Source: Leucothrix arctica
GTDB taxonomy: Bacteria; Pseudomonadota; Gammaproteobacteria; Thiotrichales; Thiotrichaceae
Reading direction: 5' to 3'
DNA length: 64,000 nt
Assembly: GCF_003172895.1 (NCBI RefSeq)
Contig: NZ_QGKL01000031.1
Location: 1-64,000 of the forward strand
Under the pieces are notes generated by a model. The model was given only the letters and a program-made list of their open reading frames with translations, searched no databases and was not told where the DNA came from. Shown here in pieces: positions 57,895 through 62,535 of the stretch; within the stretch, counting starts at the first letter, position 1; each line of letters begins with the position of its first letter. The position numbers and the translations under genes are program-made.

Positions 57895-59334
57895 ATGCTG
57901 AAACAAGGAATTCAACTCAAGCTCGGTCAAAGTCTTTCAATGACCCCACAACTGCAACAAGCGATTAAAATGTTGCAACTGTCGTCATTAGAGCTCGAGC
58001 AAGAGATACAAACGGTATTGGAATCTAACCCGCTTCTGGAACGCCCTGAAGATACCGATAACTTTGACGCTTCTGATAGTAATGCGGAAGTTGACGAAAC
58101 ACCTTCAGAAAGCCTCAGTGAGACGATACCCGACGAACTTAGCACTGACTCCGACTGGGATGACACTTACGACCCTGAATGGAAAGTAAGTAACGCTGAC
58201 GGTGAGAGTGCATCCGACTATATTGAAAAGTTACACTCAAATGCTGAAGGCTTAGCTGAGCATTTACTCTGGCAAATAGATCTAAGCAATCTTAGTGTCA
58301 TTGATAAGGCCATCGCTCACCTCGTTGTCGATTATATAAATAACGATGGACTGCTGACAGAGTCACCAGAACAAATACTTAATAGCCTAGAATCAGAATT
58401 ATTGATAGATCTTGACGATGTCGAAGCAGTACTAAGTTTCGTACACCACCTAGACCCAATAGGAATGGGGGCTAGAGACCTAGGTCAAAGCCTTTGGTTA
58501 CAATTCAATTACCACTATCCTAAGCACCCTCTGAAGAAGAAGGCTCAACTGCTATTAGAAAAAAATCTGGACTTACTGGCAAAACGAGACTATAAAAGTA
58601 TTAAGAAAGAGACTAGATTAAATAATGACCAACTCGAAATTCTAGTCAATTTAATGAAAACGCTAGATCCGAATCCAGCGAGCCGCTTTAGTAGTGAAAA
58701 CGTCGATTATATTAAACCTGATGTCTATGTACGAAAAGTAAAAGGACGCTGGCTAGTGTCACACAATGCAGAGACGTTACCAGATCTTCGCATCAATGAT
58801 ACTTACGCAGAAATGGCTTCTGACAGCCGCACAGATAAAGCGGCATCGGACTATATTAAAGATAACCTTCAGCAAGCGAGGTGGTTTATTAAGAGTCTAG
58901 ATAACAGAAATACGACCATTCTTAACGTTGCTAACGCAATTGTTGATCGCCAAATGGCGTTCCTACAGTATGGTGATGAAGCGATGAAGCCTATGGTACT
59001 TAAAGACCTTGCCGAACAGTTAGATCTTCATGAGTCCACTATTTCTCGCGTAACTACCCGAAAATTCCTTCATACACCGCGTGGTGTTTATGAATTCAAA
59101 TATTTCTTCTCAAGTCACGTCAATACCGATACTGGTGGTGAGTGTTCTGCTACGGCAATTCGCGCCATGATAAAAAAGCTAATAACAGCGGAAAACCCAC
59201 GCAAACCTTACAGTGATAACAAATTGACTAACTTGCTCAATGAGCAAGGCATCAATGTAGCGCGACGCACTGTCGCTAAGTACCGTGAAGCACTGGCAAT
59301 CCCCTCTTCACATGATCGCAAAGCATTATCGTGA
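57895..59334 (+). CDS. rpoN: RNA polymerase sigma-54 factor
   Basis: This 479-residue sigma factor directs transcription from -24/-12 promoters with enhancer-binding ATPases. Region I is Gln/Leu-rich (LGQSLSMTPQLQQAIKMLQL), followed by an acidic linker (about 50-110), the core-binding region, and the helix-turn-helix HESTISRVTTRKFLHTPRGV. The RpoN box reads ARRTVAKYRE near the C terminus. Length matches E. coli RpoN (477). It heads the set hpf, ptsN, rapZ. Confidence 0.98.
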   Translation: MLKQGIQLKLGQSLSMTPQLQQAIKMLQLSSLELEQEIQTVLESNPLLERPEDTDNFDASDSNAEVDETPSESLSETIPDELSTDSDWDDTYDPEWKVSNADGESASDYIEKLHSNAEGLAEHLLWQIDLSNLSVIDKAIAHLVVDYINNDGLLTESPEQILNSLESELLIDLDDVEAVLSFVHHLDPIGMGARDLGQSLWLQFNYHYPKHPLKKKAQLLLEKNLDLLAKRDYKSIKKETRLNNDQLEILVNLMKTLDPNPASRFSSENVDYIKPDVYVRKVKGRWLVSHNAETLPDLRINDTYAEMASDSRTDKAASDYIKDNLQQARWFIKSLDNRNTTILNVANAIVDRQMAFLQYGDEAMKPMVLKDLAEQLDLHESTISRVTTRKFLHTPRGVYEFKYFFSSHVNTDTGGECSATAIRAMIKKLITAENPRKPYSDNKLTNLLNEQGINVARRTVAKYREALAIPSSHDRKALS

Positions 59335-59416: not shown

Positions 59417-59743
59417 ATGCAACTAAATATTACAGGTCATCACATCGAGATTACTCCCTCTCTCAGTAATTATATAAAAGAGAAGACTGAACGACTCACT
59501 CGCCATTATGACCAAGTGATTAATATTAACGTTATTCTAGAGGTTCAAAAACTAACTCACAAAGCTGAAGCATCAATCCTTGTGAGTGGTAATCACCTCT
59601 TTGCTGAATCTGTTGAAGAAGACATGTATGCAGCAATTGACTCCTTAGCGGACAAACTAGATCGACAAGTGCTAAAGCACAAAGAAAAGATAACTAGTAA
59701 ACATCGACAGGAAGGCAGCCACCGTAATATTATTGCGGAATAA
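59417..59743 (+). CDS. hpf: Ribosome hibernation promoting factor, short form
   Basis: This 108-residue protein has the S30AE/RaiA fold (MQLNITGHHIEITPSLSNYI at the start and DMYAAIDSLADKLDRQVLKH in the C-terminal helix). It binds the ribosome decoding site and promotes dimerisation of inactive 70S ribosomes. It lacks the long C-terminal extension of the long form. Its position after rpoN is conserved in gammaproteobacteria. Confidence 0.96.
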   Translation: MQLNITGHHIEITPSLSNYIKEKTERLTRHYDQVININVILEVQKLTHKAEASILVSGNHLFAESVEEDMYAAIDSLADKLDRQVLKHKEKITSKHRQEGSHRNIIAE

Positions 59744-59764: not shown

Positions 59765-60238
59765 ATGCTAAGTGACATAAGTAAGCTATTAAGCCCTGAA
59801 CGAGCATTGTTTGTTCAGGAGCTTGAAAGTAAGAAACGCGTCTTTGATACATTAGCCAGTCTATTATCAAAAAAACAGACACAGCTAGATAAGGATACAA
59901 TCTTTGACAGCCTGATTGAACGTGAAAAACTAGGTAGCACCACACTCGGTTGTGGCATTGCCATACCTAGAGCCAGAGTTCCTATTAGCAAACCCTATGC
60001 TGCTCTGCTTGTTTTAAAACAAGGTATAGATTTAGAAACACCTGACAAAAAACCTGTTTCTGTTTTTCTAGTCCTACTTCTGCCAGAATCAACGCCAGAG
60101 TATTATTCGGAGATGATTGCTAATTTGATGAGAAAAATCTCCTCTCGTCCTGTTGCAGAAGAACTGTCTGAAATATCAGAACCACAAATCGCCGTAAATT
60201 ATTTAGAAACCTTACTACTTCCGGAAAAGGCCGCTTGA
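59765..60238 (+). CDS. ptsN: PTS IIA-Ntr-like protein lacking the phosphorylation histidine
   Basis: This 157-residue protein has the PTS EIIA type-2 fold and occupies the ptsN position between hpf and rapZ. KLGSTTLGCGIAIPRARVPI corresponds to the E. coli PtsN region with AIPHG, where His73 is phosphorylated. Here that position is Arg69 (codon AGA at 59969-59971), and the protein contains no histidine anywhere, so normal phosphotransfer cannot occur. The rest of the fold (VSVFLVLLLPES, ANLMRKISSRPVAEEL) is well kept and the frame is open, so a phosphorylation-independent role is likely. NPr (ptsO), the usual donor, is not found after rapZ. Confidence 0.93.
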   Translation: MLSDISKLLSPERALFVQELESKKRVFDTLASLLSKKQTQLDKDTIFDSLIEREKLGSTTLGCGIAIPRARVPISKPYAALLVLKQGIDLETPDKKPVSVFLVLLLPESTPEYYSEMIANLMRKISSRPVAEELSEISEPQIAVNYLETLLLPEKAA

Positions 60239-60242
60239 TATT

Positions 60243-61115
60243 ATGCACGCTGTTATTATTACGGGTATGTCTGGCGCAGGAAAAACACAAGCGCTAAATA
60301 CACTTGAAGATCAAAGCTACTATTGCATAGATAACCTTCCGCTAAACATGCTTGAAGAGTTATTTACTAACGAGTGGGTGCTTTCCAAAGAGAAAGTAGC
60401 GATTGGTGTTGATGTTCGAAGCGGTAAGAAATTACTTGAATCATTACCAGCAATTGTTCAACGACTTAAAGATCAATTTCGAACTGACCTTGTCTATCTT
60501 TACTCGTCTAAAAGTATCATTTTTAAACGCTACAATGAAACCCGCCGTAAACACCCACTATCTGATGAAAAAACAGGGCTAGGAGCTGCCATTGCAGCAG
60601 AGTATGAACTGCTAACAACCGTCAGATCTATTGCTGATTTCCAACTTGAGACAAGCGATACCGATATCTACCAACTAGCAACGCTTATTAAACAACGTAT
60701 CTGTGTACTTAGTAAAAAACAGCTATCACTATCCTTTCAATCTTTTGGCTTCAAGTATGGCGCACCAAGAGACTCTGACTTTATCTATGATGTACGATGC
60801 CTACCTAACCCTTACTGGGTGCCTGAGTTGCGAATCAAGTCTGGTCAGACTGAAGCCGTGTCAGCTTGGCTGGATGAGCAAACCCTTGTTCAAGATATGT
60901 ATGAAGACATCAAAAACTTCATTGAGCGCTGGATGCCGCACTTTATAGACAATCAACGAGCTTACTTAACCTTATCTATTGGATGTACCGGTGGACATCA
61001 TCGATCTGTATATTTAATAGACAAACTTTCTGAATACTTTCGTCAAAATGAAACCGTTTCTATCATCACAAATCATCGCGAGATAGAAGCAAAAAACAAA
61101 CAGAAAACAATCTAA
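60243..61115 (+). CDS. rapZ: RNase adapter RapZ
   Basis: This 290-residue P-loop protein delivers the small RNA GlmZ to RNase E in E. coli and controls glucosamine 6-phosphate synthesis. Walker A is GMSGAGKT (residues 7-14), and ALEDQSYYCIDNLPL-like NTLEDQSYYCIDNLPL follows. The C-terminal RNA-binding part has DVRCLPNPYWVPELR and the motif IGCTGGHHRSVYLID. It begins 4 bp after ptsN. The presence of GlmY/GlmZ in this organism is unknown, so the RNA target cannot be claimed. Confidence 0.95.
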   Translation: MHAVIITGMSGAGKTQALNTLEDQSYYCIDNLPLNMLEELFTNEWVLSKEKVAIGVDVRSGKKLLESLPAIVQRLKDQFRTDLVYLYSSKSIIFKRYNETRRKHPLSDEKTGLGAAIAAEYELLTTVRSIADFQLETSDTDIYQLATLIKQRICVLSKKQLSLSFQSFGFKYGAPRDSDFIYDVRCLPNPYWVPELRIKSGQTEAVSAWLDEQTLVQDMYEDIKNFIERWMPHFIDNQRAYLTLSIGCTGGHHRSVYLIDKLSEYFRQNETVSIITNHREIEAKNKQKTI

Positions 61116-61158
61116 TTTGCTAGTATAGGCGCTTCAATAAATCCAATAATATTGCCTC

Positions 61159-62535
61159 ATGGTTAACTCAGACAATCTTAGCAAAGAAGAACGACTAGCC
61201 TCCCTCAGTGGTGCTATCGAAAGTGGTTCGCTATTCACGTTACAGCGAATGCTTAACGCCCTTCACCCTGCTGAAATTGCTCACTTATTAGAATCATCTC
61301 CCCTAGAGCAACGTAAAATTGCGTGGGAACTTATCAAGCGCGAAAACGAAGGTTTAGTGCTTATTGAGCTAAACGATGATGTACGCTCGCAACTCACCGA
61401 AGAGATGGATACTGTCGACTTGGTTGAGGCGCTGAAAGACCTTGATACGGATGACATGGCCGACTTTCTACAAGGCCTGCCTGACACTGTCATACAAGAA
61501 ACACTGGCTGGCATGGGCCGCCAAGAGCGTGAACGTGTAGAAGTTGTCCTTGGGTATGATGAAGATACTGCTGGCGGTATGATGGATACCGAAGTAGTCA
61601 CCATCCGCTCAGACGTTAATGTTGACGTGGTACTACGTTATTTGAGAATAAAAGGTGAACTACCCTCACATACCGATCATGTGATCGTGGTCGACAGTTA
61701 TGATAAATACCTCGGCGTGGTCTCACTCACACAACTGATCACTAGCCAACCGGATGACGCTATTCTCGACATCATGGATACTCGTTATTTATCTATTCCT
61801 GCGCACTTAGAAAACGCTGAAGTCGCTGACTTATTTGAAGATCGCGATTTAATCTCCGCACCTGTTGTAAGCGACCTAGGAAAGCTACTTGGACGCATCA
61901 CGATCGATGATGTGGTTGATGTTATTCGTGAACAAGCGGAACATTCAATTAAAAGTATGGCCGGTGTAAATTCGGAAGATGATCTGTTTGCGCCTATTTT
62001 ACCGAGCGTTAAACGTCGTGCTGTTTGGTTAGGCACAAACCTAATTACCGCTTTCATGGCCGCTGCGGTCATTTCACAGTTCACAGATACAATCGAATCA
62101 GCGGTTGCACTTGCAGTGCTGATGGGTATTGTCCCTAGCATGGGCGGCATTGCAGGTAGCCAAACACTGACAATGGTTATCCGAGGTATTGCACTAGGAC
62201 AAATTGGTAAGTCCAACACGCGAGACTTACTTAAAAAAGAATTACTACTGGGTGTTATAAATGGCGTCTTATGGGCATTCGTCGTGTTCTGCATCTCTGC
62301 GGTAGCACTGAAAGATATTGAAATTGGGATATTGATTGCAGTCGCAATGATGCTTAATTTGATAGCAGCACCACTGTCTGGGGTACTGCTACCACTCGGT
62401 CTTCGTAAGCTAAATATAGACCCTGCCTTAGCTGGCAGCGTCTTACTTACAACCGTCACTGATATTGTCGGTTACGCTGGCGTACTCGGTTTAGCGGCTT
62501 TATTATTACCTTACCTACGCTCCGTATTTTCCTAA
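61159..62535 (+). CDS. mgtE: MgtE family magnesium transporter
   Basis: This 458-residue inner-membrane protein has the N-terminal MgtE helical domain (about 25-130), two CBS domains (about 135-260) and five C-terminal transmembrane helices (about 285-455). NLITAFMAAAVISQF, PSMGGIAGSQTLTMVIRGIALGQI and the pore region near LIAAPLSGVLLPLGL are typical. It conducts Mg2+ and the cytoplasmic domains gate the pore according to Mg2+. The gap to rapZ is 43 bp, so no ptsO can be present between them. Confidence 0.96.
   Translation: MVNSDNLSKEERLASLSGAIESGSLFTLQRMLNALHPAEIAHLLESSPLEQRKIAWELIKRENEGLVLIELNDDVRSQLTEEMDTVDLVEALKDLDTDDMADFLQGLPDTVIQETLAGMGRQERERVEVVLGYDEDTAGGMMDTEVVTIRSDVNVDVVLRYLRIKGELPSHTDHVIVVDSYDKYLGVVSLTQLITSQPDDAILDIMDTRYLSIPAHLENAEVADLFEDRDLISAPVVSDLGKLLGRITIDDVVDVIREQAEHSIKSMAGVNSEDDLFAPILPSVKRRAVWLGTNLITAFMAAAVISQFTDTIESAVALAVLMGIVPSMGGIAGSQTLTMVIRGIALGQIGKSNTRDLLKKELLLGVINGVLWAFVVFCISAVALKDIEIGILIAVAMMLNLIAAPLSGVLLPLGLRKLNIDPALAGSVLLTTVTDIVGYAGVLGLAALLLPYLRSVFS

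Follow-up and report, generated by a model that had tools for sequence, protein, structure and literature searches.

A PtsN (EIIA-Ntr) variant with arginine at the phosphorylation site and without a recognizable phosphorelay is fixed in Leucothrix and Cocleimonas

PtsN (EIIA-Ntr) of Leucothrix and Cocleimonas is a relay-less, naturally unphosphorylatable EIIA-Ntr variant fixed in this clade, which suggests that an old phosphate switch has been reused as a plain binding protein. We consider it probable that the relay was lost, that the phosphorylation His was then replaced once by Arg and that PtsN was kept as a constitutively unphosphorylated binding protein. The absence of the relay genes, the clade-wide Arg, the frames without stops and the conserved residues are established at the level of sequence. 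The gene was noticed in a stretch of 64,000 nucleotides of Leucothrix arctica (family Thiotrichaceae; contig NZ_QGKL01000031.1, positions 1 to 64,000), which is referred to as the window. Its source genome has 4.75 Mb and is 99.6% complete. The features of the locus are listed in Table 1.

Table 1 Features of the ptsN locus in the window
Feature	Position	Strand	Remark
rpoN (sigma-54)	57895..59334	+	Upstream of ptsN, in the same conserved order
hpf (ribosome hibernation factor)	59417..59743	+	Profile matches
ptsN (EIIA-Ntr)	59765..60238	+	157 aa; Arg69 in place of the phosphorylation His, Tyr114 in place of the second active-site His, Arg53 kept
Arg69 codon AGA (His in EIIA-Ntr)	59969..59971	+	Read from the sequence
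ptsN-rapZ gap, 4 bp	60239..60242	+	hprK sits here in most outgroup clusters read
rapZ	60243..61115	+	Profile matches
rapZ-mgtE gap, 43 bp	61116..61158	+	manX, ptsH (HPr) and ptsI (Enzyme I) sit here in most outgroup clusters read
mgtE	61159..62535	+	Flank beyond the missing PTS genes; profile matches

The window protein belongs to the EIIA-Ntr family by its domain, its predicted fold and the place of its gene. It contains a PTS_EIIA_2 domain (Pfam, E 2.2e-24), and ptsN lies in the rpoN-hpf-ptsN-rapZ cluster, which is the location expected of the family. TIGR01419 (PtsN) was the best-scoring NCBIfam model despite a score of 88.2 bits, which is below the equivalog cut-off of that model (138.7). 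The EIIA-Ntr fold is supported by an AlphaFold2 model based on 26 sequences (mean pLDDT 88.6, pTM 0.86). Structural comparison of the model ranked four EIIA-Ntr entries first, with Z 22.1-22.3 and an rmsd of 1.7-2.2 over 145-151 residues; for E. coli 1a6j, Z was 22.3 and the rmsd 1.7 over 147 residues. Sugar EIIA proteins (Z 15-17) and domains of SLC4 anion exchangers (Z 10-13) were further matches. The best match bearing a species name was the L. pacifica protein (76% identity). Viral carriage of ptsN was rejected, since viral contigs gave no relative of the window protein, which was the sole query.

The active-site segment reads GCGIAIPRARV, and the ORF contains ...STTLGCGIAIPRARVPISK.... 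The first-pass annotation of the window had placed an Arg codon (AGA) at the position of the phosphorylation His; the reading of the ORF and the alignment with solved EIIA-Ntr proteins confirmed this. Arg69 takes the place of the His in the AIPHG-type segment of these proteins, including E. coli 1a6j, while Tyr114 aligns with His120 of 1a6j and Arg53 with a conserved Arg. The phosphorylation His, E. coli His120 and the conserved Arg are active-site residues of EIIA-Ntr. Both histidines of a functional phosphoacceptor, the phosphorylatable one and the second one, are therefore replaced. The window protein contains no His at all, as had been claimed, but this holds for only three of the seven Leucothrix PtsN proteins; the other four have one or two His residues elsewhere.

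Arg was found at position 69 in all seven Leucothrix proteins and in 10 of the 11 from Cocleimonas (g5), the remaining one having Lys, so that all 18 proteins read from the two genera have Arg or Lys at the phosphorylation site. The codons AGA, AGG, CGT and CGC were all found across 15 Arg sequences (the single Lys is encoded by AAA), which indicates that the residue is kept while the codon drifts. These sequences come from separate assemblies. It is vanishingly improbable that the Arg reflects an error of sequencing or assembly, or a point mutation that arose recently in a single strain; this explanation was rejected because the Arg is clade-wide and its codons vary. Arg is thus fixed among the relatives in this clade.

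All 46 PtsN proteins found among 63 Thiotrichaceae genomes were read. Each of them has a basic residue (His, Arg or Lys) at position 69, and His is present in all 28 proteins from the other four genera, which form the Thiothrix side (g2, g4, g6 and g7). Thiothrix PtsN retains the first His and has mostly lost the second active-site His, which is kept in only 4 of the 46 family proteins versus 143 of 147 outside the family (among the matches listed). The phosphorylation His was present in 147/147 gammaproteobacterial PtsN proteins read outside the family, again among the matches listed. This class survey comprised 150 proteins (30 loci, 112 entries among the matches listed, with 255 of 370 genomes matched, and 8 further entries), three of which are family members; the sample leans to proteins nearest the profile and leaves out some matches, among them those of G094, G078, G068, G073, G242, G266, G256 and G391. 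Eleven further outgroup loci also have the phosphorylation His, some of which may duplicate surveyed genomes.

The phosphoryl-donor chain was searched for by profiles. In the window's genome, HPr and the Enzyme I N-domain gave no match at E <= 0.001 and HPr kinase gave no match; of 14 control genomes, the HPr profile gave matches in 7, and so did the Enzyme I profile. The NPr/HPr and Enzyme I-Ntr on which a functional phosphoacceptor depends were thus not detected. The domain search found a single EIIA-2 domain, so that a further ptsN copy in this genome was rejected along with a relay at another locus. Among 60 of the 63 family genomes (all except G095-G097; several are incomplete), 59 have neither HPr nor the Enzyme I N-domain, the exception being G033, whereas each of these profiles gave matches in 27 of the 35 class genomes searched outside the family. 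Among the genomes in which one of the searches found ptsN, HPr together with Enzyme I is present in 19 of 20 outside the family and in 1 of 43 inside. All 18 genomes with Arg- or Lys-type PtsN lack both, and 11 of these are at least 90% complete. HPr kinase was above the cut-off in 22 of the 35 outside genomes versus none of the 60 family genomes; four matches below the threshold, of about 50 residues each (G003, G015, G031 and G040), were not counted as HprK. The loss of the relay which the first-pass annotation had supposed is therefore borne out as far as the profiles reach, both in the window's genome and across the clade. The two findings that this annotation had named as refuting it, an intact relay set at another place in the genome and relatives with His pointing to a recent mutation or an error, were both looked for and did not turn up.

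In G033, an EIIC-GAT/IIB permease, an EIIA and an HPr-Enzyme I fusion are encoded in an operon-like run (locus L099, C45:2602-7160). Its HPr and Enzyme I were rejected as a nitrogen PTS because they are fused and lie behind EIIC-GAT/IIB and an EIIA of their own, i.e. in a sugar-type operon.

Since Arg occupies the site and a donor was not found, PtsN of the Arg clade would be permanently unphosphorylated at this position. It is very improbable that the protein is still phospho-switched through an unrecognised donor or another residue: the blank HPr and Enzyme I profiles in nearly all of the family, the lack of any His in the window protein and the loss of the second active-site His all argue against it, although the His kept throughout the Thiothrix side, where 24 of 25 tested genomes have neither HPr nor Enzyme I, could be taken in its favour.

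The order of the genes indicates what was lost from the cluster. The outgroup order is ptsN-hprK-rapZ-manX-ptsH-ptsI-mgtE, compared with ptsN-rapZ-mgtE in the window. In one outgroup locus (L120), which reads hpf-ptsN-hprK-rapZ-manX-HPr-EI-mgtE, the products of hprK and manX, HPr and Enzyme I were confirmed by Pfam. The manX, HPr and Enzyme I genes were found together in 10 of the 13 outgroup clusters searched; two of the remaining clusters, both of Pleionea, have HPr without Enzyme I, and one is on a contig that ends at hprK. None of these four genes was found in 16 Thiotrichaceae clusters, which were picked by hand, mostly for reaching mgtE. In 15 of the 16, rapZ is followed by mgtE, and three are without ptsN; mgtE was not seen beside rapZ in many Thiothrix-side loci. 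Re-reading of the locus upheld the earlier statement that the gap between rapZ and mgtE is too short for, and does not contain, a ptsO gene.

Clusters of a similar composition were also seen in other families. A genome of family f6 (G064, 62% complete) has the order hpf-ptsN-rapZ-mgtE without hprK, manX, HPr and Enzyme I (L278, C80:1-6747). HPr and Enzyme I were not found anywhere in this genome, and its PtsN has Gln at the position of the second active-site His; it is possibly a separate relay-less case. Two loci of family f86 (L275 in G341 and L276 in G256) read rpoN-hpf-ptsN-rapZ, with none of the four genes in the 9 kb read, and in G341 the second active-site His of PtsN is replaced by Lys.

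A FastTree phylogeny of 56 loci was built from the proteins encoded by lptB, rpoN, hpf, rapZ and mgtE. Genus g7 branches first, followed by a split between Thiothrix g2, g4 and g6 on one side and g3 together with Cocleimonas g5, Leucothrix g1 and g8 on the other. The last three are grouped with a support of 1.0, which was unchanged without lptB, and the pairing of g1 with g8 inside this group is weakly supported (0.438; 0.295 without lptB). Two of the lptB entries (G061 and G038) are evidently paralogues; the tree without lptB gave the same groups. Arg-type PtsN is monophyletic in the gene tree (support 0.969). No ptsN match was found in 17 of the 63 family genomes, namely all six of g3, all nine of g8, G022 and G058; the absence from G058 is weak, as its rpoN match is missing too and the genome is 85% complete. 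The gene is thus dispensable in close relatives. In the 12 ptsN-less loci read, rapZ directly follows hpf, and the gaps between them gave only chance-level matches to ptsN (best E 0.079). In the simplest history, the ancestor of the family lost the relay, His changed to Arg a single time in the common ancestor of Leucothrix and Cocleimonas, and ptsN was deleted on about three separate occasions. The change may predate the split of g3, because g3 has no ptsN.

These deletions, with no clear remnant left behind, bring in the main rival explanation, according to which PtsN is a remnant under weak constraint after the loss of the relay, whose His drifted to Arg and whose gene is eventually deleted as in the sister lineages. 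We regard this as a serious but rather unlikely explanation. It agrees with the loss of the second active-site His in most of the family and with the evolutionary rate. The identity of ptsN to its relatives in the genus is 66-76%, compared with 77-93% for hpf, rpoN, rapZ and mgtE, and its mean identity is the lowest among the cluster genes in every group examined. No other gene of the cluster evolves as fast, and its relative rate is higher still in the Arg clade. The ratio of the ptsN distance to that of rpoN is 1.89 in the Arg clade, 1.56 in the His clade and 1.56 in the outgroups; the corresponding ratios are 1.85, 1.51 and 1.27 to rapZ and 2.73, 1.67 and 1.92 to hpf. The ratios to rapZ and hpf favour decay slightly more than the rpoN ratio alone, and the ratios to rpoN within single genera are mixed (Leucothrix 1.49, Thiothrix 2.14). 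However, ptsN again diverges most when the four genes are compared within the outgroups, so that a part of its speed is ordinary.

Other observations argue against decay. The frame of ptsN is intact, as had been claimed, and none of the family ptsN matches contains an internal stop (the match in G017 is split over two contigs). Arg or Lys is held in all 18 proteins while the codons change. The pN/pS value of ptsN in Leucothrix is 0.22 (0.085-0.158 for its neighbours), i.e. well below 1, with dS saturated for most pairs. In the Arg clade, 30 positions reach at least 95% conservation, sequences with a gap at the position being left aside; R53-E-K-L-G57, T59, G62, A66 and P68, which surround the former active site, are among them. 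On the other hand, of P93-D-K-K-P-V98, a conserved run of the His clade, only D94 reaches 95% in the Arg clade, which counts against the explanation that we prefer. The first-pass statement that the rest of the protein is well conserved holds only in a relative sense, because no gene of the cluster is more divergent than ptsN.

Potassium uptake or KdpD had been proposed as the target of a PtsN locked in the unphosphorylated form. In E. coli, potassium systems are described as being acted on by unphosphorylated EIIA-Ntr (PMC11808508, PMC13104625), and this proposal has accordingly some precedent; for the window protein, it is nevertheless quite improbable. KdpD, which a KdpD-regulating EIIA-Ntr would need in the same genome, was not found in the window's genome; the search of all seven Leucothrix genomes was likewise negative, as was that of 58 of the 60 family genomes, and KdpD was rejected as the target. 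A full-length CvrA/YcgO was not found in the 60 family genomes with the E. coli query at E <= 1e-20, and this candidate was rejected as well. Partial matches, all within residues 8-400, occur in eight of them. The sole match in the window's genome at this threshold is a distant antiporter (27% identity) covering residues 11-391 of 577. The CorC domain, said to be the PtsN contact, is in the C-terminal region 384-578 of YcgO (PMC11808508), which lies almost wholly beyond the matched part. KdpD (3/35) and full-length CvrA (2/35) are rare in other genomes of the class too, and no conclusion on the relay can be drawn from their absence. KdpD was found in two family genomes, G057 and G042. The latter, a Thiothrix-group MAG, carries a second, His-type ptsN adjoining kdpD and a gene that resembles a response regulator by eye (L100, C141:2762-6656).

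According to the explanation that we prefer, loss of the relay followed by a single His-to-Arg change, the Thiotrichaceae ancestor would have lost HPr/NPr, Enzyme I, the linked HPr kinase and EIIA-Man while PtsN stayed in the rpoN cluster. The loss would have preceded the change in the active site: in the lineage of Leucothrix and Cocleimonas, the idle phosphorylation His would have been replaced once by Arg, which was then held (once as Lys). With its EIIA-Ntr fold and most of the active-site loop kept, PtsN may act as a permanently unphosphorylated EIIA-Ntr, Arg69 presumably keeping it in an unphosphorylated-like form. It probably binds a partner, putatively through the active-site face, which fits the conservation. 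The output of such a binding-only PtsN would be set by its amount and not by a relay fed by PEP. The retention of His in Thiothrix without the relay is not accounted for by this model and counts against it. Alternatively, Arg69 and the kept Arg53 might form a fixed positive site in the old pocket, with either an anionic partner or a metabolite that carries phosphate as its ligand. We consider this unlikely; if true, Arg69 would be a gain that turned a covalent phosphate switch into a non-covalent sensor or a permanent effector.

The related genera represent a series of stages: the relay with His (outgroups), His without the relay (Thiothrix), Arg (Leucothrix and Cocleimonas) and no gene (g3 and g8). 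A phosphorylation-independent function of PtsN is thus directly testable in them. It also follows that the presence of ptsN is by itself no safe sign of a working PTS-Ntr.

The window protein resembles the known EIIA-Ntr proteins (E. coli 1a6j, Burkholderia 3urr and 4gqx, Neisseria 2a0j) in its predicted fold, in the rpoN-hpf-ptsN-rapZ order and in the conserved residues of the loop from Arg53 to Pro68 given above. Unlike them, Leucothrix PtsN has Arg for the phosphorylation His and Tyr for the second His, and NPr and Enzyme I were not found in the genome. The cytoplasmic domains of SLC4 anion exchangers (band 3), which serve as binding domains, have an EIIA-like fold. The likeness is one of fold only; these are domains of eukaryotic membrane proteins without a gene link to the PTS. 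Among bacteria, Legionella, Acinetobacter and Moraxella are described as having a partial nitrogen PTS, with PtsN, PtsO or both missing (PMC13104625). The Leucothrix lineage is also without a part of the system, but here PtsN was kept and the carriers were lost. The gene-distribution section of the same 2026 review deals with lineages without PtsN and not with PtsN without carriers (PMC13104625), and no report of the latter was found among the titles and abstract openings listed in searches of the open-access literature, which is not proof of absence.

Most of the PtsN interactions described in known systems involve the unphosphorylated form, as stated in that review (PMC13104625). Unphosphorylatable EIIA-Ntr proteins have been made in the laboratory: the H68A variant of Azotobacter vinelandii PtsN is reported to be active (PMC4314083), and plasmid-borne PtsN1 H66A restored transport in Rhizobium leguminosarum, where the level of PtsN and its degree of phosphorylation were both considered crucial by the authors (PMC3665714). 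The phosphorylation site is removed in Leucothrix PtsN just as in these mutants. The mutants carry a His-to-Ala exchange in species with a relay, whereas the exchange in Leucothrix is natural, clade-wide and to Arg, and the relay is gone. The His-to-Ala experiments on unphosphorylated EIIA-Ntr thus have a parallel in nature, spread across a whole clade, in PtsN of Leucothrix and Cocleimonas.
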